Source: Fulvitalea axinellae
Lineage (GTDB): Bacteria; Bacteroidota; Bacteroidia; Cytophagales; Cyclobacteriaceae
NCBI RefSeq assembly: GCF_036492835.1
Contig: NZ_AP025323.1
Location: 1-62,265 of the forward strand
Length of the DNA: 62,265 bases
Direction of reading: 5' to 3'
In this document: positions 15,247 through 61,343 of the stretch, piece after piece
How positions within the stretch are numbered: position 1 is the stretch's first letter
How the letters are laid out: every line of letters begins with the position of its first letter
Notes under the pieces: generated by a model
The model's database searches: none
What the model saw: only the letters and a program-made list of their open reading frames with translations
What the model was told of the DNA's origin: nothing
Translations under genes and position numbers: made by a program

Positions 15247-15273
15247 GAGAATACATTTTGGATGACGACACAC

Positions 15274-21648: not shown

Positions 21649-21740
21649 GGATGAAAGTTCGGGAATTTTTGGAAAGGTTGAAAGGAGCGGGGCCACGGAA
21701 TGCCCGGCAAAAGGGGTATATTCGTTCCGGTAATATTAAT

Positions 21741-29240: not shown

Positions 29241-29550
29241 TGGAGACGGTTGGTTTTTACAAGCAATAAAGGAGTTAGCAAGGGGGAACACGCAACCGAA
29301 GGAATAAACGTATGAATGAAACACGGCACAGCATGATGGTGTGATGGAGAAGGTGATAATTATGGCTATAGAACCTGTTAATATGGAATATGAATCCACA
29401 TTACGATTCGTATAAACATTATTTAGTTCAATCATATAATGATTTTTTGTAATTAGACTTTTTATTTATGTAATTTGATTTTGAATTAGTTTGACCGTTT
29501 TAATTTATGAGATAGAAGAAAGCTTCTTTTATATAATTCTGATTTTTGAA

Positions 29551-40189: not shown

Positions 40190-40197
40190 TATATTTG
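40190..40197 (+). promoter_or_regulatory. -7 box TATATTTG of the aminomutase operon
   Basis: It fits TAnnTTTG. The -33 region is occupied by the second palindrome. The ATG is 39 bp further on. Confidence 0.6.
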
Positions 40198-40236
40198 CTT
40201 GCGTTTATCCAAGATTATTATCTAATAAAACCTATT

Positions 40237-41715
40237 ATGCGTTACACCGAACAAGATATATCCACCATCCAAAAAGCGGAAACCTTTAATGATTTACCTA
40301 ATGGCATTTCAGACATTGAAGGTTTGGAAATTCTTGATAAACAGCCTATTCCAGACCATTTGAAAGATTCCGTAAGTTCTGGTGACCTGACGCATAGACT
40401 ATTTGAAAGCGAATCGTTTTGGGAGAAAATTCCGGCGTTTAAGGGAGTGAGCGAAGAAGAGTTTCTCAGCATCAAATTCCAAAATAAGAATACGGTCAGA
40501 AAGCTCGAAAAGCTTGAGCAATTCATAAAAGATCTTGTAGACGATAATTTTCTTGATCAGGTAAAGGAGGGAATGCGTCGTTCGCCCATGAACCTAAGCA
40601 TATCGCCTTATATCCTGAGTTTGATTGATTGGGACAACCCATGGACTGACCCGCTCCGTATACAGTTTATCCCCGTCAATTCGGGTTTCGAGCCAGACCA
40701 CCCCAAATTGGCGCTTGACTCTTTGGGTGAGCAGGGCGATTCGCCCGTCGACGGCCTTGTGCACCGTTATTTCGACAAAGTGTTGTTCTTGCCTTTGGAC
40801 GTATGTCCCGTATACTGCCGTTTTTGCACCAGAAGTTACGCCGTTGGTGGCAACACGGACAGCGTTGACAAGAAGCGTTTCAAGAACGCGCCCGAAAAGT
40901 GGAAAGAGGCCTTTACGTATATCGCTTCGAGGCCTGAAATCGAGGACGTTGTTATTTCAGGAGGAGACGCATATATGTTGGCTCCCGACCGACTCCGCCT
41001 GATCGGGGAGACCCTGCTGGAGATACCGCATGTACGCCGTATGCGTTTCGCTACAAAAGGACCGGCGGTAGCTCCGATGAAGATATTGAGCGACGAGGCT
41101 TGGACGCAGGCTTTGGTAGAAGTAGTCAAGCTTGGAAGGGAAAAGGGCAAAGAGGTTGTGTTGCACACCCATTTCAACAGCGCCAACGAAATCACCGACA
41201 TCACGCGCAGGGCTATGCTCAAGCTTTTCCAAAACGGCGTGACGGTGCGTAACCAGAGCGTATTGATTAAAGGCGTCAACGACACGGTGGATACGATGGT
41301 TGAGTTGATCAGAAAGCTATCGTATATGAATGTGCAGCCTTATTATGTATATCAGCATGATATGGTGACGGGCACCGAGGATATGCGTACCAGCGTAAAA
41401 CATACCGTAGAGCTTGAAAAGGCCGTTCGGGGTATTACCGCCGGTTTTAATACGCCATTGTTCGTGACCGACGCGCCCGGCGGCGGCGGAAAAAGGGATG
41501 TCCACAGTTATGATTATTATGATGAGACGACGGGTATAAGCGTATACCGAAGCCCGAGTGTCGACGAATCAAAACTCTATTTATACTTTGACCCTATCGA
41601 AACCCTGCCTGTTGAGGGCAGGAAGTTATGGGAAGACGAAAGTCTGCACGAAAAATTGATAGAGGTGGCTATCGAGAAATCAGGATACTCGAACCTGGAG
41701 CCCGTGATCGGTTAA
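40237..41715 (+). CDS. ablA: Lysine 2,3-aminomutase (KamA/AblA family radical SAM enzyme)
   Basis: A 492-residue radical SAM, PLP-dependent enzyme from ATG 40237 that converts L-lysine into L-beta-lysine. The cluster motif CPVYCRFC (Cys190, 194, 197) is clear, as are the GG-D block VISGGDAY, and TDAPGGGGKRDVHSYDYYDE with the PLP-binding Lys. The extra 70 or so N-terminal residues are common in this subgroup. Together with the acetyltransferase two genes downstream it makes N-epsilon-acetyl-beta-lysine, an osmolyte known from methanogens and some bacteria. The symbol follows that pathway. Confidence 0.92.
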   Translation: MRYTEQDISTIQKAETFNDLPNGISDIEGLEILDKQPIPDHLKDSVSSGDLTHRLFESESFWEKIPAFKGVSEEEFLSIKFQNKNTVRKLEKLEQFIKDLVDDNFLDQVKEGMRRSPMNLSISPYILSLIDWDNPWTDPLRIQFIPVNSGFEPDHPKLALDSLGEQGDSPVDGLVHRYFDKVLFLPLDVCPVYCRFCTRSYAVGGNTDSVDKKRFKNAPEKWKEAFTYIASRPEIEDVVISGGDAYMLAPDRLRLIGETLLEIPHVRRMRFATKGPAVAPMKILSDEAWTQALVEVVKLGREKGKEVVLHTHFNSANEITDITRRAMLKLFQNGVTVRNQSVLIKGVNDTVDTMVELIRKLSYMNVQPYYVYQHDMVTGTEDMRTSVKHTVELEKAVRGITAGFNTPLFVTDAPGGGGKRDVHSYDYYDETTGISVYRSPSVDESKLYLYFDPIETLPVEGRKLWEDESLHEKLIEVAIEKSGYSNLEPVIG

Positions 41716-41824
41716 ACGAAAGCGAGACTTTATCAAGATTTTCGTCCGCACGCTCGAGCTTTGACATTGCTTCTACCCACAGAATGGCGTGCGGGCGTTT
41801 TTTGCCACCTTCAATTTCCATTTC

Positions 41825-43276
41825 ATGCATTGGATAGATTATGCGGTTTTCGGTACGTACTTCTCGGCTATTGTCTATGTAGGCTATTATTTTCTGGGAA
41901 AGAACCAATCCAGGGAGGATTATTACGTCGGGGGCCGCGCTATCGGCGCCGGACACGTGGGTATGAGCATCGCCGCTACGGACGTTGGAGGAGGTTTTTC
42001 TATCGGTTTGGGCGGTTTGGGATTCACAATGGGCCTTTCCGGCAGTTGGTTGTTGTTCACCGGCCTGATCGGCGCTTGGATCGCCGCGGTGGTTACGGTG
42101 CCACGGCTCAAGCGTATTGACCAAGAGACGGGCCTGTTGACTTTTCCTGACTTTTTGGCCTACAAATACAACGGCGTCGTAGCCACTATGGCGGCCGTGA
42201 TTTCGGGTATAGGCTATGTAGGTTTCACGTCGGGACAGATATTGGCCGGGGGCAAGCTTGCGGCGGCGAGCGTCTTCAAGGACATATCATGGATGGACCC
42301 CACGCATTTTTCATTGATCGTCATCTCGCTGCTTGTGGTTCTATACACCAGCATGGGTGGCATTAAGGCGGTGATTTATACGGACACGATTCAATGGGCG
42401 GTGCTGTTGTTCGGGCTTATCGCTCTCGGGATACCTTTCGCCTACGTCAAGCTGGGAGGATGGGATACCATACGCGCCACATTGCCGGACGAGCACTTTT
42501 CATTGGCCAACGTCGATTTCGCGACCTTGGCCAATTGGGCCTGCGCCATCATACCGATATGGTTTATCGCCATGACCTTGTATCAGCGCGTGTTCGCCAC
42601 CCGTGACGAGTCGCAGGCCAGAAAGGCCTTTCTTATCGCCGGCGTGTTTGAATATCCGATCATCGCGATATCGGGCGTGGTGCTGGGAATGCTCGCCCGT
42701 GTGGCTTATCCGGAGAGTGACCCCGAGGCGGCCTTGCCCCATTTACTTACGGGCGTATTGCCGGTAGGTATTGCCGGTTTTGTGCTGGCTTCCTATTTCT
42801 CCGCCGTGATGTCCACGGCCGACAGTTGCCTTATCGCCGCTTCCGGAAATGTGGAGAACGACTTGTTGCGCAAGTACTTTCCTTCGGAAGGGAACCTTGT
42901 CTGGCGGTCGATCATCGTGACCTTGGTACTCGGAATTCTGGCCTCGGCATTAGCCCTTTACTTCACTAGGGTTCTGGACATAATCCTTCACTCCTACTCG
43001 TTTATGGTCGCCGGGCTTCTCGTACCGACTTTGGCGGGGTATTTCGCGAAGCGTCCCAGCGTGCGTGGAGCGGTCGCGTCCATGTGGTGCGGAGGAGGTA
43101 CCGCATTGGTTCTCATAGCCATGGAAATTCCGTTGCCTTACGGACTCAACCCCACATTGTTCGGGTTGATTATGTCCGTTATCGCATATTTTGTGACGAA
43201 CGCCATGGGTAACCCTTCGGAAAACGCCCGAATCCGACAGCAAAAGGTAGGCTTGGAAAAGGAAAGTGAAGCATAG
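41825..43276 (+). CDS. Sodium:solute symporter (SSS family)
   Basis: A 483-residue transporter from ATG 41825 (MHWIDYAVFGTYFSAIVYVG) with about 13 membrane segments. The SSS signature region is visible: GISIAATDVGGG-like AIGAGHVGMSIAATDVGGGF, GLGGLGFTMGLSGSWLLFTG, and ASYFSAVMSTADSCLIAASG with the Na-site Ser/Thr. It lies between ablA and ablB, so it may import lysine or the osmolyte itself, or take up another compatible solute in salt stress. Substrate cannot be told from sequence alone. Confidence 0.9.
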   Translation: MHWIDYAVFGTYFSAIVYVGYYFLGKNQSREDYYVGGRAIGAGHVGMSIAATDVGGGFSIGLGGLGFTMGLSGSWLLFTGLIGAWIAAVVTVPRLKRIDQETGLLTFPDFLAYKYNGVVATMAAVISGIGYVGFTSGQILAGGKLAAASVFKDISWMDPTHFSLIVISLLVVLYTSMGGIKAVIYTDTIQWAVLLFGLIALGIPFAYVKLGGWDTIRATLPDEHFSLANVDFATLANWACAIIPIWFIAMTLYQRVFATRDESQARKAFLIAGVFEYPIIAISGVVLGMLARVAYPESDPEAALPHLLTGVLPVGIAGFVLASYFSAVMSTADSCLIAASGNVENDLLRKYFPSEGNLVWRSIIVTLVLGILASALALYFTRVLDIILHSYSFMVAGLLVPTLAGYFAKRPSVRGAVASMWCGGGTALVLIAMEIPLPYGLNPTLFGLIMSVIAYFVTNAMGNPSENARIRQQKVGLEKESEA

Positions 43277-43364
43277 GAAAAAATACGAACATTTCGACTC
43301 CGTTCTTAGGATTTACTCAGCAGGGGAGAGTCCTTCCTTTCGCCATTGCATTAAAATAACAGAA

Positions 43365-44207
43365 ATGATTTTCGATCAGATTGAGTTAATCTCAAAATCC
43401 ACGATACAACACGGGCCGAATAATGACAGGGTATATCTCATGAAGATACATCCCGACGATAATCCCGTAGAGATAATTGAAAGCGTCGAAAGACTGGCCG
43501 ATGAAAAAGGGTACACGAAGATATTCGCCAAAGTGCCGGTCCGTTATTCCGAATATTTTTTGGGCAGGGGCTTTAGGCTGGAGGCGCTTGTGCCCAATTT
43601 TTACAAGGGAATCGAAGACGGCTGTTTTCTGGGAAAGTTTATAGACCGATCAAGAGGGATGCTGAGCCAAGACGAGCAGCGCTTGTTTTCGGAGGTGAAA
43701 AACGTATCGTGGGAGGGAAGTTCAAATGACACGGCCAGCCTTCCTCCGGCATACGAAATCGTTGAACTCGGCGAAGCGGACCTGAACGAGGTGGCCCTTT
43801 TGTACCGTAAAGTTTTCAACGTGTATCCGTTTCCGATATTCAATGAGGAATACCTGTTGGAAACGATGCGCGACAATGTCCGTTATTTCGGGGTACGGTA
43901 CGAAGGCGATATTGTGGCGGTATCGTCCGCGGAGATAGACTTTCAGGGAAGCAATGTCGAAATGACCGACTTCGCTACCTTACCCGAATTCAGGGGGAAG
44001 AATCTGTCCTACATTCTATTGAATAAAATGATGTCGAGCGTCTCAAGTCTGGGAATCCGCACGGCGTACACAATAGCGCGGGCTTCATCGTTTGGGATGA
44101 ATAAGACTTTCGGAAAGTCGGGCTTCGAGTTCAAAGGGACCTTGGTCAATAATACGTTTATAGGAGAGTCAATCGAGTCCATGAATATATGGTATAAGGG
44201 GGTTTGA
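43365..44207 (+). CDS. ablB: Beta-lysine N6-acetyltransferase (AblB, GNAT fold)
   Basis: A 280-residue acetyltransferase. I chose ATG 43365 (MIFDQIELISKSTIQHGPNN) because AblB proteins start shortly before the conserved IQHGPxNDRVYLM block; the frame upstream to GTG 43266 overlaps the symporter and has no family match. The C-terminal GNAT domain shows VEMTDFATLPEFRGKNLSYI (acetyl-CoA loop, with RGKNLS replacing RGxGxG) and TAYTIARASSFGMNKTFGKS. It acetylates beta-lysine, finishing the osmolyte. It is the last gene of the operon. Confidence 0.9.
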   Translation: MIFDQIELISKSTIQHGPNNDRVYLMKIHPDDNPVEIIESVERLADEKGYTKIFAKVPVRYSEYFLGRGFRLEALVPNFYKGIEDGCFLGKFIDRSRGMLSQDEQRLFSEVKNVSWEGSSNDTASLPPAYEIVELGEADLNEVALLYRKVFNVYPFPIFNEEYLLETMRDNVRYFGVRYEGDIVAVSSAEIDFQGSNVEMTDFATLPEFRGKNLSYILLNKMMSSVSSLGIRTAYTIARASSFGMNKTFGKSGFEFKGTLVNNTFIGESIESMNIWYKGV

Positions 44208-44715: not shown

Positions 44716-45219
44716 ATGAATGAAGATAATTTAGATAGTAAGAAAAGTATACTTCAGGTAGTGCCTGAGGCCAATGAGAGGAAGCTTAAGAAAGTGCCTT
44801 TTGTGGAGTTGGCCGACGGTCGGCTTCAGGGGGTTGTTTCGAGTGGTTCTGATTTGGATCGTGTTTATGTGTCGTACATCAAGAGCGGTTCGCATGATTT
44901 CTATTGCAGTACGAACAACAATCGTAAATGTGGGGGACTGTACGGTTCACCTTGCAAGCATATTACGAGTTTGTTGAGTGAGGCGATTTTGCAATACGGT
45001 TCGAAACGGGTGATTCAGTATTTGAATGTTCCGATGGATTCGGATGTCGAATGCAAGGAGCGTGATATTCTTTCGAACATCAGCGGCAGTCTGAAAGAAG
45101 AACCCGCGTCAACCGTTTTCAGTCGATTTATGGGGCACTTGCAGTTTCTCGAATTAGATAATTCGGTTGAGCCTTTACATGAAATGGATTGGTTTCTAAC
45201 AAAATCAAAGGACGTATAA
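44716..45219 (+). CDS. SWIM zinc-finger protein (YehQ-like N-terminal part)
   Basis: A 167-residue protein. The SWIM zinc site is Cys64, Cys72, Cys80 and His82 (FYCSTNNNRKCGGLYGSPCK then HI), preceded by a strand pair GRLQGVVSSGSDLDRVYVSY; the first two Cys are further apart than in the standard CxC form. SWIM fingers bind DNA or proteins. It is the first of five genes: SWIM, partner, VWA, MoxR, DUF5682. The next ATG follows directly on its TAA, so both are translated as a pair. In E. coli one longer protein, YehQ, has the SWIM part; here it seems to be split. Confidence 0.78.
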   Translation: MNEDNLDSKKSILQVVPEANERKLKKVPFVELADGRLQGVVSSGSDLDRVYVSYIKSGSHDFYCSTNNNRKCGGLYGSPCKHITSLLSEAILQYGSKRVIQYLNVPMDSDVECKERDILSNISGSLKEEPASTVFSRFMGHLQFLELDNSVEPLHEMDWFLTKSKDV

Positions 45220-46593
45220 ATGGAGCTTACTAAACTTTTAAATCCATCTGAGGGGCTTGAGGCCTCATTTTTTCATTTACAGCTGCTTGATGACTGCCTT
45301 AAATCCGGCTTTTCCCGATTGAGCGAAGTCCAAAAAGAGTCTCTAAACTCGTTTGCCCAAATCTTCTCAAGCACTCCTTTTGAATCTCCTTTGCGGCAAG
45401 CCATTGACGCGCTTGTTCGAGGCGAACTGAAGTCCGAATATTTCAAAACCATAGCGGGCGCCCGCTTGTCGTTGACAGGCGCTATCTATGACGCTCAGCT
45501 CAATTTGCTGGAAGACGCGGGATTTGGAAAATGGACGGCTCCTCAGGAAACGCCTCCAGCTCAGCCCGAATCTCCACTTTTGGAAAGCTGTTTGGAATTC
45601 CTGACAGAAATGGCAATCAACGGATTCGATTCCCTGGAAAACGAACAGCTTCAGCCCTTTAGCCAAACATTGGATAACTTGCTGAAAAACCCTCAATACA
45701 ACCGCCAAAGCAGTTTATTGATCGGTTTTATAAACGAGCTTTCGCAATCGATTCCTATTCATTCGATGTCAAGCGTTCCGTTGCGCCGTTGGGCGGATAT
45801 GTGGTCGAGAGCGGTTATCAATTCGACTTGTGTCGTCGAAAACGGCAAGGACGAAACGATATCGGGAGAGCTTTTCATTTTGGGAACCGACATCAACCAA
45901 CACAGCAATTGTGTATCGTTGAAATGTCACGGAATAGTGCAGAACGAAACCGAAAACCGTTTTGTGAATCTAACCATCACCACCTACAAAGTGGACACCA
46001 TCGTAGGTCCTGAATGCTGGAACTTATTCAAGGATTATTCAGACTTAGTCACAGCGTTATCCGAGAATAAAAGTCTACAAATTAGTGAGTTGCCGATCGT
46101 ATCGGATAATGCGCTACTATGGGATGAAACGAAGGTGGAATTACTGAACGCTTTTTCTCCGCTTGAGGTAGCCAAAGAACATCTTGCCGAAGCCGTGCAA
46201 TATAAAGTTCCGTCTTTCGACCGTCATTATGTGCACATTTGCGCTCCCGTGTTCTTGGAAGGCTACAAAGTGAAAGTCGCCGACGGCGAGCATCGTATTG
46301 TCGCCGATGGTTTTGAGATGAATGTCGATAAAAGCCGGATGTCTTCGATGAGTCTTTTGACTCCTGCGATGATTAAAACTTCCTTATCCTGCTTTGGCTT
46401 TATGCGTTTTGATGGCGTAAACTGGACTTTTCAGGTCTTGACCGTCAATACGGTTGTTAAGAAAAAGGAATACGTTGTCCATAATGCGACAAACTGTGGT
46501 TCGACAGTTCCTCCCGCAATCAAGAAGAAGAAAAAGGCAAACGATTCCTTCTCGATTCTCAAAGAGCGCTCTAGCCGATTATTAAGGAAGTAA
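45220..46593 (+). CDS. Partner protein of the SWIM/VWA/MoxR block, unknown family
   Basis: A 457-residue soluble protein whose ATG touches the stop of the SWIM gene. Residues 1-165 are helical (QLLDDCLKSGFSRLSEVQKE and IDALVRGELKSEYFKTIAGA); residues 190-400 have more strands (ISGELFILGTDINQHSNCVS, VNLTITTYKVDTIVGPECWN). The C-terminus is basic (KKKKANDSFSILKERSSRLL). No motif is recognised. With the SWIM protein it adds up to 624 residues, similar to my memory of the size of YehQ, so it may be the separate C-terminal part of that family. Confidence 0.65.
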   Translation: MELTKLLNPSEGLEASFFHLQLLDDCLKSGFSRLSEVQKESLNSFAQIFSSTPFESPLRQAIDALVRGELKSEYFKTIAGARLSLTGAIYDAQLNLLEDAGFGKWTAPQETPPAQPESPLLESCLEFLTEMAINGFDSLENEQLQPFSQTLDNLLKNPQYNRQSSLLIGFINELSQSIPIHSMSSVPLRRWADMWSRAVINSTCVVENGKDETISGELFILGTDINQHSNCVSLKCHGIVQNETENRFVNLTITTYKVDTIVGPECWNLFKDYSDLVTALSENKSLQISELPIVSDNALLWDETKVELLNAFSPLEVAKEHLAEAVQYKVPSFDRHYVHICAPVFLEGYKVKVADGEHRIVADGFEMNVDKSRMSSMSLLTPAMIKTSLSCFGFMRFDGVNWTFQVLTVNTVVKKKEYVVHNATNCGSTVPPAIKKKKKANDSFSILKERSSRLLRK

Positions 46594-46732
46594 TAGTGAT
46601 GATTTTTTCGGAATCACTCCCTAATAAGAGGGTTTGAGAGGCGAGAGACGATTTATTTTTAAGCACGTTGTGCTATTTATTATTATTCTGAGACGCTTCT
46701 TTTCCGCTACTTAGTCGGAAAAAAGGTCGAAG

Positions 46733-46740
46733 TAATTTTG
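46733..46740 (+). promoter_or_regulatory. -7 box TAATTTTG before the VWA gene
   Basis: It matches TAnnTTTG and is 15 bp before the ATG at 46756. It suggests that VWA, MoxR and DUF5682 have an extra promoter of their own inside the block. No clear -33 box is seen. Confidence 0.5.
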
Positions 46741-46755
46741 CGAGAGTGCTTATTT

Positions 46756-48204
46756 ATGGAACATAAAAAAGAAACTGGTCAGAATAACGAACGGCTGTTG
46801 CTTTATTGGCGGTTGATGAGCAGTATTTTTGGTAGCGAGAAGAATCCCAAACTCGAAAAGCTTAGCGCTGAGATTTTGAAGGATGCCGCTTTGCCCGAAA
46901 TACTATTATCGCAGGACCATTCGATAGACGCGATCGTCCAGCGATATCCGGAGCTTCAGGAGACATTTGACTCTTTGACCGACGGGATATTTTCGGACGA
47001 TAGCAAGCCAAATCTAACCGAGGAAAATAAAGAGCCGACAGCGGAAGCCCAGGCAACTCCTCAAATGTCCTTAGAAACGGAAACGGAGATCAAACCGGCA
47101 GAAGCTACAGAAACCTCTGAAGCTCCCAAGCAACAGGAAGAATCGGCTAATTCTGGAGCAAAGGAAGTTGAAAGAGCGGCTGTTTATTCTAAGATGTTGG
47201 TAAACGTGTTTGCCGCGGTTCAGCACGGAACGGTGACGGCCGGGCAATATAGCCAGTGGAATAACGACAAAAAGTGGCTGGAACGAGCCTTCACACGAAA
47301 CGGCGAAATGGATGGCGGGCTACAAGCCAGCTTGAAAGAAATGGAAGCCGATATTGTGAAGCGAATGCGCCTTCGCGAAGTGTTGGCCGATACGCGTTTG
47401 GCTAAAAAGCTTACGCCAAGCATGGCGCTGGTTGAGGAATTGCTACGGGACAAATCGCATCTTGCCGATGTGGCTTTGAAAAACGCGAAAGACCTCATCA
47501 AGCGCTTTATTGATCAAGTGGCCGAAGTGCTCAAAACGCAGGTGGCGCAGTCGAAAGTCGGGAAAATCGACTATTCCGTTCCTCCCAAAAAGGTGTTCCG
47601 GAATTTGGATCTAAAACGAACCATCTGGAAGAACCTCACCAACTGGGACGCTAAGTCAGAACGCCTGTATGTCGAAAACCTGTACTACAAGCACACCGCA
47701 AAGAAAAATACGCCTTCGAGGTTAATTGTAGTGGTCGACCAATCGGGCTCTATGGTCGATTCGATGGTGAACTGTACGATACTGGCCTCAATATTCGCGG
47801 GTTTGCCTAAAATTGATCCGCATCTGATCGCCTACGATACCCAAGCGATCGACCTGACTTCCTGGATTCACGATCCTTTTGAAGTGTTGATGCGCACCCA
47901 GTTGGGAGGCGGAACAGACGGAACGGCGGCGATGGAAATCGCGAAACCCAAAGTCATTGACCCGAGCAACACGGTGGTGGTTTGGATTTCGGATTTTTAT
48001 GAATGGAAGGCTCAGGAATTGTTCAACCAATTCAAGGCGTTGCACGAGTCGGGAGTGAAATTTATTCCTGTGGGTTCGGTGAGCAGTTCGAATTACCAAT
48101 CCGTTAATCCGTGGTTCAAACAGCGGTTCAAGGAGATGTCTACGCCTGTGATTTCAGGGAAAATAGACAAATTAATTGTTGAGTTGAAAACATTTTTAGC
48201 ATAG
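46756..48204 (+). CDS. VWA-domain protein (CoxE/YehP-like)
   Basis: A 482-residue protein from ATG 46756; the frame upstream to TTG 46738 contains the promoter box. Residues 75-130 are a Glu/Thr/Ala-rich linker. From about 140 to 310 there is a helical domain. The VWA domain begins near 320 with the metal site DQSGS (Asp328, Ser330, Ser332), then GGGTDGTAAM with the MIDAS Thr and VVWISDFYEW with the MIDAS Asp; all are intact. VWA proteins of this kind work with MoxR ATPases to remodel or insert metal into a target. It is 15 bp upstream of the MoxR gene. Confidence 0.88.
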   Translation: MEHKKETGQNNERLLLYWRLMSSIFGSEKNPKLEKLSAEILKDAALPEILLSQDHSIDAIVQRYPELQETFDSLTDGIFSDDSKPNLTEENKEPTAEAQATPQMSLETETEIKPAEATETSEAPKQQEESANSGAKEVERAAVYSKMLVNVFAAVQHGTVTAGQYSQWNNDKKWLERAFTRNGEMDGGLQASLKEMEADIVKRMRLREVLADTRLAKKLTPSMALVEELLRDKSHLADVALKNAKDLIKRFIDQVAEVLKTQVAQSKVGKIDYSVPPKKVFRNLDLKRTIWKNLTNWDAKSERLYVENLYYKHTAKKNTPSRLIVVVDQSGSMVDSMVNCTILASIFAGLPKIDPHLIAYDTQAIDLTSWIHDPFEVLMRTQLGGGTDGTAAMEIAKPKVIDPSNTVVVWISDFYEWKAQELFNQFKALHESGVKFIPVGSVSSSNYQSVNPWFKQRFKEMSTPVISGKIDKLIVELKTFLA

Positions 48205-48218
48205 AAAAAGACAAAATC

Positions 48219-49352
48219 ATGGCAGAGTCATTACGCTTACCGGCAGAAGAAAAATATAAAGAAGAATTAGATTACCTAAAATCAATTGATAACGCGCCAA
48301 AGCCTTTTCAATGGAATTTGAGCGCGAATATGGTTCGTATTTTCATATTGGGCTCTACGCCCGCGGACAATATGGAACGCGAGATTCCTCAAAAATGGTT
48401 TGGCGACAAATCGCTTGTTGAGCGCAGCATTGTCACCCTGGCGTCGGACCGAGGACTTTTATTGATCGGAGATCCGGGAACCGGTAAAAGTTGGTTGGCC
48501 GAATTGCTTGCCGCTGCCATTTGCGATAACTCCACACAAGTTGTGCAGGGAACGGCGGGAACAACCGAAGATCAAATCAAATATTCGTGGAATGTGTCGA
48601 TGGTAATTGCCAAAGGGCAGTCGCACGATTCCTTGATTCCGTCGCCTATTATGCGTTCGATGGCAACGGGTACAATCGGGCGTTTTGAGGAATTGACGCG
48701 TTGTACTTCGGATGTGCAGGACGCTTTGATTTCTATTTTGAGTGAAAAGTACGTTTCTATTCCTGAGTTGAAAGACGGGAATGTTGTATTCGCTCAGCCG
48801 GGTTTCAATATTATCGCAACCGCCAATAGTCGCGACCGTGGCGTAAACGATCTTTCTTCGGCCTTGAAGCGTCGATTCAATTTTGTTCGCATTCCGATCG
48901 TAACCAACAAAAAAGCGGAATCCGACATTATCCATTTCCGCACCAAGGAACTGTTGAAGCGTCATAACTTCGATTATAACGTTTCGAATTCGCTCTTGGA
49001 TATCTTGCTGCAAACTTTCAACGATCTTCGCGAAACATCGGCAGCGGCCAATTCCGACGACGAAAAACTGGAATCCGCGCTTTCGACAGCCGAACAAATC
49101 GGCGTGCTTGAAGACGCCATTTTGCACAGCAATTTTTTTGAACGCGAATTGACGAGCAAAGTGTTGGCTTCGTCGCTAATCGGCTCGTTGGTAAGGCGTA
49201 ATCCAGAGGATGTTTCTTTCATGAATAAGTTTTGGAATAATGTTGTCGAGAAACGCAAGACCGAAAAGGAAGAAGCGAAAGACACAGAAGCCGCAAAAGA
49301 ATGGGAAGATTTTTTGAATGCCGGGAATAGTACAATGGAAGTTATGAAATAG
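48219..49352 (+). CDS. MoxR-type AAA+ ATPase (YehL-like)
   Basis: A 377-residue AAA+ protein. Walker A GDPGTGKS at residues 84-91; the Walker B region reads TIGRFEELTRCTSDVQDAL, with Glu-Glu in place of the usual Asp-Glu; sensor 1 is NIIATANSRDRGVNDLS; the arginine finger is in SSALKRRFNF. A helical lid follows. A His-Asp-Ser-Leu-Ile-Pro stretch before Walker B belongs to the MoxR-specific insert. It should form hexamers that pass force through the VWA protein. 6 bp separate it from the next gene. Confidence 0.9.
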   Translation: MAESLRLPAEEKYKEELDYLKSIDNAPKPFQWNLSANMVRIFILGSTPADNMEREIPQKWFGDKSLVERSIVTLASDRGLLLIGDPGTGKSWLAELLAAAICDNSTQVVQGTAGTTEDQIKYSWNVSMVIAKGQSHDSLIPSPIMRSMATGTIGRFEELTRCTSDVQDALISILSEKYVSIPELKDGNVVFAQPGFNIIATANSRDRGVNDLSSALKRRFNFVRIPIVTNKKAESDIIHFRTKELLKRHNFDYNVSNSLLDILLQTFNDLRETSAAANSDDEKLESALSTAEQIGVLEDAILHSNFFERELTSKVLASSLIGSLVRRNPEDVSFMNKFWNNVVEKRKTEKEEAKDTEAAKEWEDFLNAGNSTMEVMK

Positions 49353-49358
49353 GAGTCA

Positions 49359-52238
49359 ATGTCAAATACCTTAAACAGTCTGTTTGCGAAAACGGACGAT
49401 ACCAAAACCCTGCGGAATACGCTGCTGGGTTCGATCAAGGAGTTTACCAACGGCGATGACGATTACAAGCACTTGCTTCACCATATTTTTGATGATGTGG
49501 AGCGAGCGGCCCGTGAGGACTTGGAAATATTTCCTGTTTGTCATCATTCGCCGTCGTCGGCTCGTTTTATGATCAAGCGACTCCTCGAAAAGCAACCGAA
49601 AGTCATCTTTCTGGAGCTTTGCGAAGACCTTCAGCCCTTGCTCGAGGATTTGCGTCAGTGTACGTTTCCCGTAGCCTTGCAGGCTTTCGCCTTAGAGACG
49701 GAAGGTTTTCCCAAGTCTTGGTCTCCGCTAAGCGTTGTCGCTCCATTGACGGAATTTTCGGCGGAATATCAGGCCATAACCTATGCTTTGGAAACGGGCG
49801 CCCAAATCGTGCTGGTGGATCGTTCATGCGATCATGTTTTTCAGTGGATTCCCCAGGAAGACGACGAGCTGGAAAAAGAAAAGAAGAAGAGCCAAAACAA
49901 GGAGAAGGAAGAACTGGACAGTGAAACCGCCGAAGAAGTGGGGCAGGATATTCACGGTTCGTCCGTGGGGATACAAATAGGCCAGAACCTTCCGGGATTC
50001 GCCGAGTTTGAAACCTTTTTATTGGACAATGCGAATGTCCATCACTATTCGGAATGGTGGGAGAAATATATTGAAGAATCGTTGGTAGGCGAAGACTATG
50101 AAACCTACTATCAGTTAATGTATTTTATCGGAAGCCTATACCGCCGACTCCGCCAGGACAAGAAGGACGATCTCGAGACAAACCGCAATCGCGAACGCTA
50201 TATGTGGCAGCGCATGAAAGAATATGTTCGCGAAAACGACCTAGACGCCGCCGATTGTATTCATGTTTGCGGAGCGTTTCACTCGGTGAGTGATGTGGAA
50301 GAATTTGGAGTCAACAGCGCCGCCGAATACACCATCGGCGAACGCTCAAAAACCCAATGGCTGTACGGTTTGATTCCGTCGAGTTATTTTGCGATCGAAC
50401 ATCAGTTTGGCTTGCCTTCGGGAACAATGTCACTGGCCGAAGCCAATTGGAAAAAGTCGCTGACCAAAGAAAAGTTAAAGTCGTTTAAACTAGGCAAAAA
50501 GAAGAAAAGCTTAAAATTACCCAAAGCCTCCGCCACCACGTCAACGGCAAGCGAAGACATCGCAAAGTTGGTTGACTTTCTGGGCAAAGTTCCCGAAGAT
50601 CATAAAAGCGATGAAAAACAGCTTGTGGATTGGTGCGCAGGCATTGTCAAATTGGCTCGTAAAAACGGTTATTTGGCTTCTACGGCCGATTCAATCGCTA
50701 TTTATCAAACTTCGATTCTGCTGGCCAATATGAGAGGGCGAAAACATCCTTCCCCTTTCGATTTTAAGGAAGCGGCCATCACTTGTCTCGAAAAAGACGC
50801 GACCCCGAAAAAACGAAACATCACACAACTTTGTGTCATTCTTTTGGGTGGAGACAAATCGGGAAAAGTGGGATATTTATCGCTTCCGCCTTTGGCTCAG
50901 AATGTCTACGACCAGCTTGAACCGCTGGGCAAAAACTTGTCGTCCAAGACGATACAGCGTGCATTGATTGACTTCAAGCAAAACCCGGAACTCAAACCCT
51001 GTTCTGATTTGCTGTGGAAGCTGAGTTATTTGACCGACAATCGTATTGTTCACCCGATTATGGGCGAGCGAACGCTGGGTTTTGAGCCGCTTCAGGAATC
51101 ATGGGATTTGTCGATCGGAAAATACCAGCGTGTACTCATTGAGTTGGGTTACGAGGGAATCACGGTGGAGTATGTGATTGAAAAACGGCTGAAGCATTCG
51201 GTTTACAGTTCGGGCGCATCCGCCGCAAAGGGTCTGGACGCGGTCGAGAAGTGTATTCTGTTCTTGGACAATCACCGGTTGGCCGAAGAGCTCGGACGAC
51301 GTTCGGTTGAGCTGATTTCGAAAGAAGATTCGATTAAGGACGCTCCTGAGATTTTCAGGAAGATTCGAAAACTGATTCATTATTACCGAAATCAAGGCCA
51401 GAAATTGCCGCATTGGTTGAATACCTTTATCACAAACGGTTATTCGCATTATTGCACAATGCTGCCAAAGGCATTCGTAGACGAGGACGTTTCGCCCGAC
51501 AAAGTGGCCGCCATGACGGGTTTTGTGTTGACGCTCGAAACATTGGCCTTATCGCTGGGTTGTAATCGCGATCAATTTGTTATCGCCATCAAACAGTCGC
51601 GCCCCACACAGCCGACCAAACTGGCCTTGTTGTGGACCGCCGAGTTGATTCTTTCGATGAAGGAACTGAGCGAAATCAGAGCCTACTTTGATGAACTGTT
51701 GAGCAATCCGATGCGATTGGCGACTTTCCCCGACTATCTGAAGGGTTTCATCATGGCGCTCGATTTTACTTCGGTAACGGTTTCCTTTACGATCGAATTG
51801 TTTTCGAAAGCCTTCCAGCGTTTGCCCGATTCCATTCTGCTTCCGTGGCTTCCAAGTCTGATCACGACTCTCCAAAAGGAGAATCCCGATTTGATGTCGA
51901 AGATCGTGAAAGAAGCGGGAATGCTCTTTCCCAACACTTTGCAAGATCTCAAAAACTGGCAACCTGCTTGGGAAAAAAGTGAAACGGCAACGCCTAAAAA
52001 GGCGGTCCAAAAGCAAACCGAATTAACGGCCGAACAGAAACAAGCCAATGCGCTCATTCATGAGCATAAGGATACGGCCGTGGCTATGGCAAGCCTGTTA
52101 AACTTCGATCTATCATTCGAAAGTGCAACGGAAAGCGAAGCTTCGTCTGTTGGTTTGAGTGAAGAGGAAAAACAAGCCAATCAGCTTATTCTGAGTTATT
52201 CTGATTCGATGGATGTGATGGAGAAGTTGTTGTTTTGA
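49359..52238 (+). CDS. DUF5682 protein (YehM-like), large
   Basis: A 959-residue cytoplasmic protein. The N-terminal 300 residues have FPVCHHSPSSARFMIKRLLE with His62-His63, then KVIFLELCEDLQPLL with Glu86, and later CIHVCGAFHS (His near 305); this recalls the TraB/ChaN/EreA-like metal-hydrolase fold. A basic linker (LGKKKKSLKLPKAS) leads to a long helical part (420-870). The C-terminal 100 residues hold two copies of a short motif (AEQKQANALIHEHKDTAVAM and EEKQANQLILSYSDSMDVME), each about 25 residues. It is the likely effector or client-binding part of the block. E. coli YehM is shorter, as I recall. Confidence 0.82.
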   Translation: MSNTLNSLFAKTDDTKTLRNTLLGSIKEFTNGDDDYKHLLHHIFDDVERAAREDLEIFPVCHHSPSSARFMIKRLLEKQPKVIFLELCEDLQPLLEDLRQCTFPVALQAFALETEGFPKSWSPLSVVAPLTEFSAEYQAITYALETGAQIVLVDRSCDHVFQWIPQEDDELEKEKKKSQNKEKEELDSETAEEVGQDIHGSSVGIQIGQNLPGFAEFETFLLDNANVHHYSEWWEKYIEESLVGEDYETYYQLMYFIGSLYRRLRQDKKDDLETNRNRERYMWQRMKEYVRENDLDAADCIHVCGAFHSVSDVEEFGVNSAAEYTIGERSKTQWLYGLIPSSYFAIEHQFGLPSGTMSLAEANWKKSLTKEKLKSFKLGKKKKSLKLPKASATTSTASEDIAKLVDFLGKVPEDHKSDEKQLVDWCAGIVKLARKNGYLASTADSIAIYQTSILLANMRGRKHPSPFDFKEAAITCLEKDATPKKRNITQLCVILLGGDKSGKVGYLSLPPLAQNVYDQLEPLGKNLSSKTIQRALIDFKQNPELKPCSDLLWKLSYLTDNRIVHPIMGERTLGFEPLQESWDLSIGKYQRVLIELGYEGITVEYVIEKRLKHSVYSSGASAAKGLDAVEKCILFLDNHRLAEELGRRSVELISKEDSIKDAPEIFRKIRKLIHYYRNQGQKLPHWLNTFITNGYSHYCTMLPKAFVDEDVSPDKVAAMTGFVLTLETLALSLGCNRDQFVIAIKQSRPTQPTKLALLWTAELILSMKELSEIRAYFDELLSNPMRLATFPDYLKGFIMALDFTSVTVSFTIELFSKAFQRLPDSILLPWLPSLITTLQKENPDLMSKIVKEAGMLFPNTLQDLKNWQPAWEKSETATPKKAVQKQTELTAEQKQANALIHEHKDTAVAMASLLNFDLSFESATESEASSVGLSEEEKQANQLILSYSDSMDVMEKLLF

Positions 52239-56433: not shown

Positions 56434-58020
56434 ATGACTTTACAACTGGACACGCTCGAATCCTGGCTGTGGGATTCGGCGGATATATTGCGCGGGAGCG
56501 TGGATTCATCGGATTTCAAAAACTACATCTTCGGTCTGCTTTTCCTGAAGCGCGCTTCGGACGTTTTTGACGAGGAGATAGAGACGCTGACGGAAGAGGA
56601 AGGCGATGGCTACGAATACGAGGACGCGTATGAGGACGTGCACTTCAAGATTCCGAAAGAGGCGCATTGGAAATACCTGATAGCCAAAGGGGAGAACATC
56701 GGGGAGGCTTTGGACAAGGCTTTCGCCTCGATTGAAGAGGAAAACGCCGCGCTGAAGATCGACGGCGTGCTGACGGCGGTGCATTTCGGCAACAAGGAAG
56801 TGCTGGGTGACGAGACCTTGCAACGCCTGCTGAATCACTTCAACAAATACAGCCTGCGCAACGCCGACCTCTACAAGCCGGACATGCTGGGCGACGCCTA
56901 CGAGTACCTGATCCGTATGTTCGCCGACGACGCCGGCAAAAAGGGAGGGGAATTCTATACGCCCCGCGGGGTGGTGAAGCTGATCGTGAACCTGCTTAAG
57001 CCGGAGCCGGGCAACAAGGTATATGACCCGACCTGCGGGAGCGGCGGTATGCTGATCGAGTCGGCGCGCTATATCAGCAAGCAGGAAGGCGGAAAGACTT
57101 CCGGCGGGCAGATCAACTGTTCGTTGAGCGGGCAGGAAAAGAACCTGGGCACTTGGGCGATCTGTAAGCTGAATATGATCCTGCACAACTATACGGACGC
57201 GGATATCCAGAAAGGCGATACGCTTGCCGATCCGAAGCACCGTGACGCCAATGACGACTTTATGCTTCAGGATCGTGTGATTGCTAATCCTCCCTTTTCT
57301 TTGAATAAATGGTGGAACCGTATCGAGACGAATCTGGCGAAGAAAGTCGATAAAAACGGGAAGGAAAAAGAAGTGGCTCCGAACTACAACAAGGAAGTTT
57401 CGGATCCTTATGGCCGTTTCCAATACGGAATTCCTCCGCGTGGCTACGCCGATTTGGCTTTTCTTCAGCACATGTTGACGATGCTCAAAACCGACGGACG
57501 TATGGGTGTCGTCTTGCCTCATGGCGTATTGTTCCGTGGTGGAGCCGAAGGAAAAATCCGTCAGCAATTGTTGGAAAATGACCTGATCGAAGCTGTGGTA
57601 GGATTGCCTTCCGCTTTGTTTTACAATACGGGAATTCCCGCTTCGATTATCATTCTGAATAAACAAAAGCAAGAACATCTCAAAGACAAGCTTATCATCA
57701 TCGATGGTTCGGAGCAGTACAAAGAAGGCAAGAACCAGAACGCACTGGAAAAGGAGCATGTAGACACGATCAGCGAATGGTTTGATACCTTCTATCTGAA
57801 TCAGGAAGCCGATGAAGAAAACAAATACGCGCGATTGGTCGAGCTGAAAGAAATCGCCGAGAATGATTATAACCTGAACATTGCCCGCTATATCGATACT
57901 TCAGAGCCGGAACCGGAGATCAATGTCAGCGAAGTCTTGCAGGACATCCAGCGCATCGAAACCGAAGAGGCACAGATCGATAGCAAATTGAAAGGATTTT
58001 TAAACGAATTGGGGTATTGA
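56434..58020 (+). CDS. hsdM: Type I DNA N6-adenine methyltransferase subunit HsdM
   Basis: A 528-residue methyltransferase. The start MTLQLDTLESWLWDSADILR is typical. Motif I DPTCGSGGML begins at residue 198 (SAM binding) and motif IV NPPF at 285 (adenine binding). It methylates the host site and forms the core of the restriction complex with HsdS and HsdR. The 5' half (to about 57280) is clearly GC-rich and the 3' half much less so, with other codon choices, as if the gene were a recombinant. It heads a six-gene operon; 22 bp to hsdS. Confidence 0.95.
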   Translation: MTLQLDTLESWLWDSADILRGSVDSSDFKNYIFGLLFLKRASDVFDEEIETLTEEEGDGYEYEDAYEDVHFKIPKEAHWKYLIAKGENIGEALDKAFASIEEENAALKIDGVLTAVHFGNKEVLGDETLQRLLNHFNKYSLRNADLYKPDMLGDAYEYLIRMFADDAGKKGGEFYTPRGVVKLIVNLLKPEPGNKVYDPTCGSGGMLIESARYISKQEGGKTSGGQINCSLSGQEKNLGTWAICKLNMILHNYTDADIQKGDTLADPKHRDANDDFMLQDRVIANPPFSLNKWWNRIETNLAKKVDKNGKEKEVAPNYNKEVSDPYGRFQYGIPPRGYADLAFLQHMLTMLKTDGRMGVVLPHGVLFRGGAEGKIRQQLLENDLIEAVVGLPSALFYNTGIPASIIILNKQKQEHLKDKLIIIDGSEQYKEGKNQNALEKEHVDTISEWFDTFYLNQEADEENKYARLVELKEIAENDYNLNIARYIDTSEPEPEINVSEVLQDIQRIETEEAQIDSKLKGFLNELGY

Positions 58021-58042
58021 TTTATCAACAAAAGAAAATCAA

Positions 58043-59314
58043 ATGACTAAAAATATAAATACAATCCCCAAAGGCTATAAACAAACTCCGATCGGGGTGA
58101 TTCCCGAAGAATGGGAAGTGGTGAAGTTGGGGGATATAGCTGATGTAAAAGGTGGAAAAAGATTACCTAAGGGCGAGAATTTAATTGAGAAAAGGACTAC
58201 ACATCCTTATATTCGAGTTGCAGATATGAAAGAAAATGGAATAGATGAAAATAATATTTTATTTGTTCCAGATCATGTTTATCCAAAAATAAAAAATTAC
58301 ACAATATCAAAAGGAGATATATATATTTCTGTAGCTGGAACTTTAGGGATTGTAGGATTAATATCAAAAACTTTGGATGGTGCTAATCTTACAGAAAATG
58401 CCGATAAGATAACAAATATAAAAATAGAAAATGATTTTTTATTATGGGTTTTAAAGTCTGAGTTAATTCAATCTATAATATCAAAAGAATCAACATCTAA
58501 TGCTCAACCAAAATTGGCTTTAGGAAGAATTAGAGAGTTTCTAATTCCAATTCCATCTTCTCCAGAACAACAAAAAATCGCTTCGATCCTAAGCACAGCC
58601 GATGAGAAGCTTCGCCAGATCGAGGAACAGATCACCCAGACCAAGGCACTCAAAAAAGGCCTTTCACAAAAGCTCCTTACCCGTGGCATCGGGCATACCA
58701 CATTCAAAGACTCCAAACTCGGAGAAATTCCGGAGAGTTGGGAGGTTGTGAAGTTAGGGGAAATATGTAAAGTGAATCAAGGATTACAGATTCCAATAAG
58801 TAAAAGGTATTTAGAAAATGGAAGAAATCGTTATGTATATATCACTAATCAATACATAAACAAGGCTTCTGATGATTTAGAGGTTCATTATATTGAGAAT
58901 CCTCCTAAGAATGTTATTTGTGAAGATGATGATATTTTAATGACAAGAACAGGAAATACTGGAATAGTAGTAACTAATCAATCAGGAGCATTTCATAATA
59001 ATTTTTTTAAAATTGATTTTGATAGAGATAAATTAACTAGAATGTATTTATACTATCAATTAACTAGTGATTTTTATCAAAATATTATAAAAATAAAGGC
59101 AGGTTTAACTACCATACCGGATTTAAATCATGGAGATTTTTATAGTATCCATTTATTTCTCCCCCCATTCCCCGAACAACAAAAAATCGCTTCCATTCTC
59201 GGAGAAGTGGATGCCAAGCTCGCCAAGTTGGAAGAGAAAAAGACCGCTCATCAGCAGTTGAAAAAAGGCCTTATGCAGGATTTGTTGACGGGCAAGAAAA
59301 GGGTGAGTGCGTAA
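58043..59314 (+). CDS. hsdS: Type I specificity subunit HsdS
   Basis: A 423-residue protein with two target-recognition domains (TRDs). Each opens with the same signature (PEEWEVVKLGDIADVKGGKR at 20-40, PESWEVVKLGEICKVNQGLQ at about 233) and is followed by a conserved helix (PEQQKIASILSTADEKLRQI; PEQQKIASILGEVDAKLAKL). The TRDs (58150-58560 and 58760-59165) are very AT-rich while the spacers between them have the GC level of hsdM. This fits TRD swapping between strains. It decides the bipartite DNA site, which cannot be read from the sequence. Confidence 0.95.
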   Translation: MTKNINTIPKGYKQTPIGVIPEEWEVVKLGDIADVKGGKRLPKGENLIEKRTTHPYIRVADMKENGIDENNILFVPDHVYPKIKNYTISKGDIYISVAGTLGIVGLISKTLDGANLTENADKITNIKIENDFLLWVLKSELIQSIISKESTSNAQPKLALGRIREFLIPIPSSPEQQKIASILSTADEKLRQIEEQITQTKALKKGLSQKLLTRGIGHTTFKDSKLGEIPESWEVVKLGEICKVNQGLQIPISKRYLENGRNRYVYITNQYINKASDDLEVHYIENPPKNVICEDDDILMTRTGNTGIVVTNQSGAFHNNFFKIDFDRDKLTRMYLYYQLTSDFYQNIIKIKAGLTTIPDLNHGDFYSIHLFLPPFPEQQKIASILGEVDAKLAKLEEKKTAHQQLKKGLMQDLLTGKKRVSA

Positions 59315-59338
59315 GGGATATTTTTGTAGATTAGGAAT

Positions 59339-60424
59339 ATGAACAAGATAGTGACCACATACTGCTTAAATCGATTTTCGATACATGACTATCATGGGAT
59401 AAAAGAGATAGTGATCGAAGATTTGCCCGACGCCTCACCCTGGATTTTTTTAACAGGGGAAAATGGTTACGGAAAGACACTGATTCTAAAGGCGCTCTCC
59501 GCAAAAATTGGCCGAAAGAAAGATGATTATCTCCCGAAAGAATCTAGAGTGGATTTAGAAATTAGGGAGTATAAAGGCAATGGTTTAAAGAAGTCTTTAA
59601 GTAAAGAGTGTGTCGCTTACGGCCCGCATAGGTTGAGTATGGCGGAAAGGATCAGTGACGATAGCCCTACGAACTTGAGGAGCCTGTTTGAATCAAGATC
59701 CGTATTGCGAGATATTGAGAAGGAAGGCTTAAGCCGTTGGTATTTCAATCAGAAAGAAAAATATCACGAGGCCGTTTCCATATTCAAACGCTTATTGCCC
59801 CAACTGGCGGAAGTACATGTAGACGACAATACCTATAAAATCACTTATAAAGAAAAAGATGAGTCGGGAAATATCATAGATGAAGCCCGTACTTTCCAAG
59901 AGCTTGCTTCCGGCTTCCAGAACATCATAGCGATGGTGGGGGATATATTGTTGCACTTTTCCGAAGCGATGACCAAGTCATTCAAAGGCTTTAATGAGTT
60001 GAAAGGTATCGTATTTATTGATGAGCTGGAGCTATACTTACATCCGAAGTTGCAGAAAAAATTGCCCGGATTACTGAGCGATATTTTTCCCCGCATACAA
60101 TTTATAGCGTCCACGCACAGCCCCATTCCACTGTTGGGGGCGCCGGAGCACAGCGTATTTTTGAAGGTTAATCGCACGAAGGAGGAGGGGATAACGGTGG
60201 AGAAACTAGACATCGACTTGAGTGAACTGTACATTGACAATGTGCTGAGTTCCCCGATATTCGGCTTCAATGAAATTCTCTCCACCAACCGTGACCCAAA
60301 GAAAAGAATTCGTACAAACCCTGATTACGAAGAAGTTTCATTTGAGAAAAAATTAGAAGACCGGCTTAAGAAATTAAGCGAAGAAGCTAATATTGACCCT
60401 AAAAAACTCTTCGGCGATGATTAA
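59339..60424 (+). CDS. Septu PtuA-like AAA ATPase (OLD/RecF type)
   Basis: A 361-residue ABC-type ATPase. Walker A GENGYGKT at about residues 40-47, a signature-like ASGFQNIIAMVGDI, Walker B GIVFIDELELYLHPKLQKKL and a His switch ASTHSP are clear. It stands directly upstream of an HNH gene overlapping by 8 bases, the arrangement of PtuA-PtuB in the Septu anti-phage system. Here the pair is nested between hsdS and hsdR, in the same operon. It should be cytoplasmic and act with the HNH nuclease on invading DNA. Confidence 0.85.
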   Translation: MNKIVTTYCLNRFSIHDYHGIKEIVIEDLPDASPWIFLTGENGYGKTLILKALSAKIGRKKDDYLPKESRVDLEIREYKGNGLKKSLSKECVAYGPHRLSMAERISDDSPTNLRSLFESRSVLRDIEKEGLSRWYFNQKEKYHEAVSIFKRLLPQLAEVHVDDNTYKITYKEKDESGNIIDEARTFQELASGFQNIIAMVGDILLHFSEAMTKSFKGFNELKGIVFIDELELYLHPKLQKKLPGLLSDIFPRIQFIASTHSPIPLLGAPEHSVFLKVNRTKEEGITVEKLDIDLSELYIDNVLSSPIFGFNEILSTNRDPKKRIRTNPDYEEVSFEKKLEDRLKKLSEEANIDPKKLFGDD

Positions 60425-61316: not shown

Positions 61317-61343
61317 GTCAATCATTTTTTTAGAATAACAGAC

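Follow-up and report, generated by a model that had tools for sequence, protein, structure and literature searches.

A plasmid-borne five-gene operon of Fulvitalea axinellae, sister to Escherichia coli yehLMPQ, and the machine that it may encode

The 62,265-bp plasmid contig NZ_AP025323.1 of Fulvitalea axinellae (phylum Bacteroidota), called the window where the whole analyzed stretch is meant, carries a block of five intact, adjacent, same-strand open reading frames (ORFs) at 44716-52238. They encode a SWIM-like zinc-finger protein, a partner protein, a VWA protein, a MoxR ATPase and a long-form DUF5682 protein (Table 1). The block is a sister of the E. coli yehLMPQ locus, other than that locus itself: its MoxR, DUF5682 and VWA proteins are 39% (E value, 2e-82), 23% (9e-10) and 31% (2e-44) identical to YehL, YehM and YehP, respectively, and YehQ has no match in the block. 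We regard the operon as an apparent new branch of a machine that is still poorly understood, and not as a proven defense system. Our reading, which we offer tentatively, is that the five proteins form an ATP-driven remodeling machine in which MoxR-VWA loads or opens a TraB-like DUF5682 hydrolase.

Conservation of the five-gene operon across phyla

The block, as delimited in a preliminary description of this DNA, was confirmed by the same-strand ORFs and by Pfam calls. The intergenic gaps are 0, 162, 14, and 6 bp, with the 162 bp counted from the VWA ATG at 46756. A scan of genome contigs gave at least 591 pattern matches, at least 514 of which are relatives, and 80 loci were kept. The order SWIM-like protein, partner, VWA, MoxR, and long DUF5682 was seen at 74 of the 80 and at all five loci from a plasmid collection (79/85 in total). 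Of the remaining six, five (L024, L025, L033, L071, and L074) are truncated by the end of a contig. Four cyanobacterial loci (L028, L031, L042, and L053) have an extra 180-amino-acid (aa) gene on the opposite strand between MoxR and DUF5682, and in L076 the insertion is instead a 195-aa gene that separates VWA from MoxR.

The kept loci are mostly from Actinomycetota, followed by nine from Cyanobacteriota and one each from Chloroflexota and Thermodesulfobacteriota; the five DUF5682 relatives in the plasmid search all come from actinomycete records, at least one of which is of chromosome size. Matches were found in 36 of 100 genomes of the family around Nonomuraea sp. PA05, whereas a full match was found in 2 of 100 genomes Actinomycetota-wide (centre genome counted) and in 1 of 98 Cyanobacteriota-wide, i.e., the centre genome only. 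In the phylum of the host, 1 of 395 genomes, the host itself, has a real long-form match, the second match scoring 20.6 bits. In these counts other matches of 20 to 30 bits were set aside, and those in genomes G423, G656, and G817 were judged to be chance. The five-gene class is thus unevenly distributed overall and frequent in certain families. As none of the other 394 genomes of the host's phylum has a match, the plasmid copy was probably acquired by transfer.

Mean identity between the window proteins and those of 21 genomes from three other phyla is 72.5% for MoxR (70 to 74% for 12 aligned orthologues of other phyla), 58.5% for VWA, 54.3% for the SWIM-like protein, 50.1% for DUF5682, and 32.5% for the partner. 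The DnaN proteins of those genomes share 26.7% with the host's DnaN, a value that compares hosts, whereas the operon itself may have crossed between phyla. For the 120 pairs from Actinomycetota, mean identities are 90.3, 77.2, 74.9, 69.8, and 63.0% for MoxR, VWA, DUF5682, SWIM-like protein, and partner, versus 65.0% for DnaN, and the pairs less identical than DnaN number 2, 17, 23, 36, and 55, in the same order. In six cyanobacterial pairs, MoxR (93.8%), VWA (88.6%), and the SWIM-like protein (84.2%) exceed DnaN (83.3%), DUF5682 is slightly below it (82.0%), and the partner (71.8%) is below it, as it is in Actinomycetota. Several genomes encode DnaN paralogues, of which the best-scoring one was taken, and genome G113, with a match in two pieces, was excluded.

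In a DUF5682 tree built by a quick method from 86 rows, the 69 Actinomycetota rows and the nine Cyanobacteriota rows are each confined to one side of a branch; the window protein, at the end of a long branch (1.45), is not placed with certainty. Four actinomycete genomes (G118, G125, G135, and G146) have three or four divergent DUF5682 genes each, so that parallel machines may coexist.

Intact ATPase and metal sites and a natural DUF5682-VWA fusion

The VWA protein matches Pfam VWA_CoxE (2e-27), and D328, S330, and S332 of its metal ion-dependent adhesion site (MIDAS), D328-x-S330-x-S332, are invariant in 18 sequences. MoxR matches Pfam AAA_5 (1e-37), with the Walker A residues G84, P86-T88, and K90 invariant in 17 sequences; matches to nSTAND3 (25; cutoff, 27.2) and bpMoxR (15.2; cutoff, 27) fall below threshold. 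The VWA metal site, as had been proposed, and the ATPase site are intact.

Beside a MoxR gene in a related locus (L153, 7250-10768), a single 1,173-aa frame fuses DUF5682 (residues 26 to 914) to VWA_CoxE (943 to 1164). Since one such natural fusion exists, an action of MoxR and VWA on DUF5682, which the preliminary description had pictured as a switch, is compatible with the data. The L153 fusion also adjoins a gene for a 1,633-aa protein without a Pfam match at an E value of 0.1.

The first two proteins of the operon have no Pfam match at an E value of 1 and no NCBIfam match at 0.1. In the SWIM-like protein, C64, C72, C80, and H82 are invariant among 28 sequences, in the spacing C-x7-C-x(7 to 9)-C-x-H. 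The SWIM zinc finger (PF04434) is defined by the motif CxCxnCxH. As the spacing differs and neither the window protein nor two orthologues match PF04434 or any other Pfam family at an E value of 1, the SWIM definition does not apply, and the label once given to this protein is a loose fit only. A direct profile comparison with SWIM gave an hhalign probability of 3%, with just a 12-column stretch containing CKH aligned. The partner is 27 to 36% identical to its orthologues; its comparison with DUF5691 gave an hhalign probability of 0.3%, so that membership in that family was rejected. Among solved structures at an E value of up to 10, no convincing relative was seen for the partner, the SWIM-like protein, or the N-terminal domain of DUF5682, and the best match of the partner, Mediator subunit 22 (0.009), was set aside as chance.

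A likely TraB-like domain in DUF5682

The window DUF5682 protein matches PF18934 at 4e-33 and 115 bits, above the curated cutoff of 26 bits. The match covers profile positions 5 to 473 of 727, and as the last third is unmatched, it is not a full-length match; five canonical DUF5682 proteins match positions 1 to 727 at 772 to 912 bits. Ten residues (H62, H63, E86, D154, E239, R278, E279, C304, G305, and H308) do not vary among the 44 sequences aligned, which include four canonical ones. An N-terminal alpha/beta domain (about residues 50 to 378), possibly TraB-like, is followed by a helical-repeat-like C-terminal part (about 590 to 870). AlphaFold modeled the whole protein with a predicted local distance difference test score (pLDDT) of 72.4 and a predicted template modeling score (pTM) of 0.47 from 46 sequences, the C-terminal part forming a long helical region, and residues 50 to 378 alone with better scores (pLDDT, 78.6; pTM, 0.78).

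The TraB/PrgY/GumN family (PF01963) belongs to the Tiki/EreA superfamily, which has a metalloprotease link, and Tiki proteins have metal-dependent hydrolase activity. We compared DUF5682 with a TraB alignment made of 14 of the 18 PF01963 matches from the host's phylum plus E. coli YbaP. The DUF5682 profile of 14 diverse non-long sequences matched it with P values of 2.2e-4 and 3.0e-4, and a profile of 30 sequences including the long form matched with a P value of 1.8e-3, the alignment pairing R..CGA.H of DUF5682 with RN..GAgH of TraB. In contrast, six unrelated control profiles gave P values of 0.19 to 0.62 against the TraB profile and 0.056 to 0.60 against the DUF5682 profile. A single TraB sequence (YbaP) against the DUF5682 profile gave a P value of 0.11. 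When the N-terminal domain model was searched against a viral fold library, the top of 57 matches was a TraB family protein (E value, 0.031; probability, 0.85), followed by one at 0.91. A TraB-like fold of this domain is likely. The resemblance to TraB/EreA-type hydrolases suggested earlier is supported moderately and incompletely for DUF5682 as a group and weakly for the long form.

The proposed machine and the points against it

Few clients are known for the MoxR-VWA pairs, a widespread kind of AAA+ machine. Our literature searches found no mention of DUF5682, and no functional study was among the matches listed for yehL/M/P/Q, DUF5691, SWIM, and MoxR. In the machine that we propose, MoxR would supply the AAA+ motor, and the VWA protein, of the CoxE type, would serve as its adaptor. 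A parallel is NorQ-NorD, in which AAA+ motion is reported to twist the VWA protein and thereby lead to metal insertion into a target (PMC13036017). The dedicated client would be DUF5682, in which a helical-repeat scaffold is predicted to carry a TraB/Tiki-like hydrolase domain, and MoxR-VWA may load metal into, or mechanically open, its putative active site, for which H62/H63, E86, R278, and H308 are candidate residues. The zinc-finger protein and the partner might bring in the substrate or act as a scaffold for the complex. The operon would represent an old, slowly evolving machine kept in several mostly filamentous lineages and, in the window, carried as cargo by a Bacteroidota plasmid, and its cellular role would most likely be in stress or protein quality control, rather than in anti-phage defense.

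Several observations weigh against this reading. A fold search of the Protein Data Bank (PDB) gave no match at an E value of 0.001 for either DUF5682 model; the matches of the full protein have E values of 0.028 or higher, the top ones being mostly helical-repeat proteins, and no protein named TraB or EreA is among the 50 matches listed for the N-terminal domain. The viral TraB protein superposes poorly (root mean square deviation, 13.4; template modeling scores, 0.28/0.40). For the long form itself, the local P value against TraB is 0.019 with four canonical sequences included and 0.087 alone, and the global P values of 0.012 and 0.020 come with another region aligned. The DUF5682 comparison set had been prefiltered by the motifs HH[SG] and [CV]G[AG]xH themselves, and two of the 16 non-long sequences, the E. 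coli-class L154 and L155, failed this filter and were excluded. Both have HHSP and, unlike E. coli YehM, no later GxxH-like motif in the first 330 residues by a looser search; therefore, H308 is not universal in DUF5682. At one Desulfococcaceae locus (L079, 3030-5729), a long-form DUF5682 gene occurs with the other four genes absent from the stretch examined. Finally, the client may be encoded elsewhere than in the operon.

Wider and alternative readings

A wider proposal, which we consider somewhat doubtful, is that DUF5682 founds a branch of TraB/Tiki-like hydrolases gated by MoxR-VWA and that the window operon is a third, cross-phylum class, beside yehLMPQ and a class with DUF5691, that moved to a plasmid and may be an ATP-gated effector against stress or invaders.

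It is rather unlikely that MoxR-VWA-DUF5682 instead acts as a maturation co-chaperone that assembles or metal-loads an enzyme outside the operon, like CoxD-CoxE, NorQ-NorD, or RavA-ViaA. The CoxE-type VWA protein fits this reading, and the MoxR-VWA pairs described so far are reported to serve in metalloenzyme maturation or to target respiratory complexes (PMC9976466, PMC10585395, and PMC13036017). However, no client gene is constantly adjacent: shared neighbor clusters are few and heterogeneous, and the largest, by loose single linkage, includes 25 of 86 loci at varied positions. The catalytic-looking DUF5682 residues conserved in all 44 sequences also argue against it.

The preliminary description had envisaged an anti-invader machine. 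In the mold of the MoxR-vWA ternary conflict systems, DUF5682 would be an effector kept silent until an invader is sensed. We find this reading unlikely, at a probability that remains appreciable because of the plasmid context, the ternary-system analogy, and the limits of our neighborhood screen. The block lies beside McrBC, a type I restriction-modification (R-M) system, and a Septu-like pair, and, as in the ternary systems, MoxR and vWA genes share one operon. Pairs of this kind that are joined by a third component have been proposed to be conflict systems and are reported to predominate in multicellular prokaryotes (PMC7159879). Consistent with this, the 49 carrier genomes searched are large (6.0 to 14.3 Mb), and several hold three or four DUF5682 genes. 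Most of the 80 kept loci belong to genera that we take to be filamentous. An annotated N-6 DNA methylase adjoins the block in Streptomyces fungicidicus (L009), and in L010 there is an AbiEii-type gene at a distance of seven annotated genes.

Other evidence points away from defense. The five proteins gave weak, generic PADLOC hits: TerY for VWA (0.003) and mad8 (2e-6) and REase_II (0.004) for MoxR. We sampled the neighbors of 30 loci, one per genus where possible (three Streptomyces, two Actinomadura), taking up to five genes per side with a simple codon-score gene caller. Of these 265 proteins, 264 were scanned by PADLOC at 1e-15 (the 2,797-aa neighbor of L022 was dropped), and the control comprised 149 of 156 proteins (7 dropped), drawn from set positions in carrier genomes (18 of 20 stretches chosen). 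Among the neighbor matches listed were 11 to mad3, two each to PD-T4-6, C3a189, MkoA, and mad6 (kinase-type), two to mad2, and one each to mad8, TAP-like, MTase_I, and MTase_II; the control matches listed were two each to mad3 and RT-Protease_XI and one each to a kinase-type family, PDC-S03, and LmuA. The difference in mad3 (11/264 versus 2/149) has a Fisher P value of 0.15. As mad2 also matches the window HsdM, one or two of the 264 neighbors are methylase-like. No enrichment of PADLOC families over the control was thus seen at the 30 loci within five genes per side (ten had been proposed), at a threshold that catches the window HsdM, HsdS, and PtuA and misses McrB (1e-11) and McrC (no match).

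Grouping in the DUF5682 tree is by phylum, and 48 pattern matches in viral contigs included no relative. Kaur and colleagues describe components of conflict systems as evolving faster than a replicative polymerase subunit (PMC7159879). The opposite is seen here: within Actinomycetota, the mean identity of four of the five proteins, MoxR, VWA, and DUF5682 among them, exceeds that of DnaN, the beta clamp. By Pfam, the window proteins carry no additional effector domain. The E. coli sister gene yehM is present in 5,284 of 5,426 E. coli genomes (5,166 with at least 80% of the gene), with 5,289 of 5,291 places on chromosomes; it is core and therefore no accessory defense gene. These results weaken the defense-island context, the main argument for a defense-system label. 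Thus, of the preliminary interpretation, the yeh kinship, plasmid location, intact sites, and a moderate TraB likeness stand, and the anti-invader role finds no support beyond this plasmid.

That the block is passive plasmid cargo, an intact accidental passenger whose benefit to the host is unrelated to its neighbors, is improbable: the probable transfer noted above and the abl-type set and other unrelated genes on the plasmid suit it, but five open frames with key residues kept argue for selection, without naming a function.

The sister class keeps its operon rigidly across phyla. DUF5682 can be fused to VWA and possibly has a TraB-like active site, and these findings offer it as a concrete client with candidate catalytic residues, which is relevant to E. 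coli K-12 too.

Plasmid context

The window is a whole contig of a 7.39-Mb, 15-contig genome. It encodes Rep3 and ParA, with a subthreshold match for ParB. Among its Rep relatives in the plasmid collection, the 11 with the best coverage come from plasmids of Aureibacter and Persicobacter, which points to a Bacteroidota host. As hsdR is in frame across the contig ends, a complete circular plasmid is suggested. The plasmid location proposed earlier is upheld, and the neighboring McrBC, type I system, and Septu-like pair were all recovered. In the type I R-M locus, genes for a PtuA-like ATPase and an HNH protein lie between hsdS and hsdR, and hsdR is interrupted by the contig ends only. Other regions hold an abl-type compatible-solute set, in which ablB (beta-lysine N-acetyltransferase) matches at 9e-91, an aldehyde dehydrogenase family gene that a stop seems to split into two neighboring pieces in one frame, and a cluster with an NADase-translocation F5/8C-type domain.

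Table 1. Positions of the operon, its key residues, and other features of the window
Feature	Position	Strand	Basis or remark
SWIM-like zinc-finger protein, 167 aa	44716..45219	+	ORF; C64, C72, C80, and H82 at 44905-44961
Partner protein, 457 aa, no known family	45220..46593	+	ORF; conserved C-terminal ER-x2-RLLR
VWA_CoxE protein	46756..48204	+	Pfam; ATG start, TTG at 46738 also possible
MIDAS of VWA protein	47737-47751		D328-x-S330-x-S332
MoxR AAA+ ATPase, 377 aa	48219..49352	+	Pfam AAA_5; Walker A at 48468-48491
Long-form DUF5682, 959 aa	49359..52238	+	Pfam; N-terminal alpha/beta domain and helical-repeat-like C-terminal part
DUF5682 H62/H63	49542-49547	+	Invariant in 44 sequences
DUF5682 E86	49614-49616	+	Invariant in 44 sequences
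DUF5682 R278/E279	50190-50195	+	Invariant in 44 sequences
DUF5682 C304-G305-x2-H308	50268-50282	+	Invariant in 44 sequences
Aldehyde dehydrogenase family gene	13813-15273		Two pieces
Rep3	16023-17351		Plasmid feature
ParA	20887-21696		Plasmid feature
NADase-translocation cluster	29491-33764		F5/8C-type domain, D-Ala-D-Ala dipeptidase-like gene, VanW-like gene
abl-type set	40195-44207		KamA-family lysine 2,3-aminomutase-like, sodium:solute symporter, ablB
Type I R-M locus	56434-62264 and 33-2201		
hsdR, N-terminal part (HSDR_N)	61344-62264		In frame across contig ends
hsdR, remainder	33-2201		In frame across contig ends

Comparison with known systems

Like the MoxR-vWA ternary conflict systems, with VMAP, iSTAND, FtsH, or beta-propeller proteins, the window operon has a MoxR-vWA core and a third component. 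It differs in that this component is DUF5682, in its slow evolution, and in showing no variable effector domain in its proteins. No VMAP, iSTAND, FtsH, or beta-propeller component was found above cutoff in the five proteins by Pfam, in which no dedicated VMAP or iSTAND profiles were used. The main text of the ternary-conflict paper contains no mention of SWIM, Yeh, or TraB (PMC7159879).

With NorQ-NorD and CoxD-CoxE, the operon shares the MoxR ATPase and a VWA adaptor, CoxE-type in the window, whereas DUF5682, the partner, and the zinc-finger protein are extra, and no nor or cox gene is among the window proteins scanned. DUF5682 as a group and TraB/PrgY/GumN proteins have the ordered motifs G..H, E, R, and GA.H in common, besides the remote profile match, but DUF5682 has a large helical insert, a helical C-terminal part, and no Pfam TraB hit.

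Sister-class loci were obtained from 12 further stretches fetched from carrier genomes. An actinobacterial operon of the order SWIM-DUF5691-MoxR-DUF5682-VWA (L148, L149, and L152; L147 is cut before VWA) has five genes of the same kinds with SWIM first. It differs in its classical SWIM (PF04434), in its DUF5691 partner (PF18944), in a MoxR 40 to 42% identical to the window's, and in the order MoxR-DUF5682-VWA rather than VWA-MoxR-DUF5682. Actinobacterial copies of the E. coli class adjoin yehI-like genes (L154 and L155). In E. coli, the order is L-M-P-Q (MoxR-DUF5682-VWA-SWIM), with yehI upstream and no partner gene; YehM has 759 aa versus 959 aa for the window DUF5682, and YehQ-like proteins have the CxCxnCxH motif that the window SWIM-like protein lacks. 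The yehLMPQ domain set first assigned to the block thus fits its YehL, YehM, and YehP kinship but not its gene order, SWIM motif, or extra partner, and what the two loci share is homologous MoxR, DUF5682, and VWA proteins in one operon with a zinc-finger protein.

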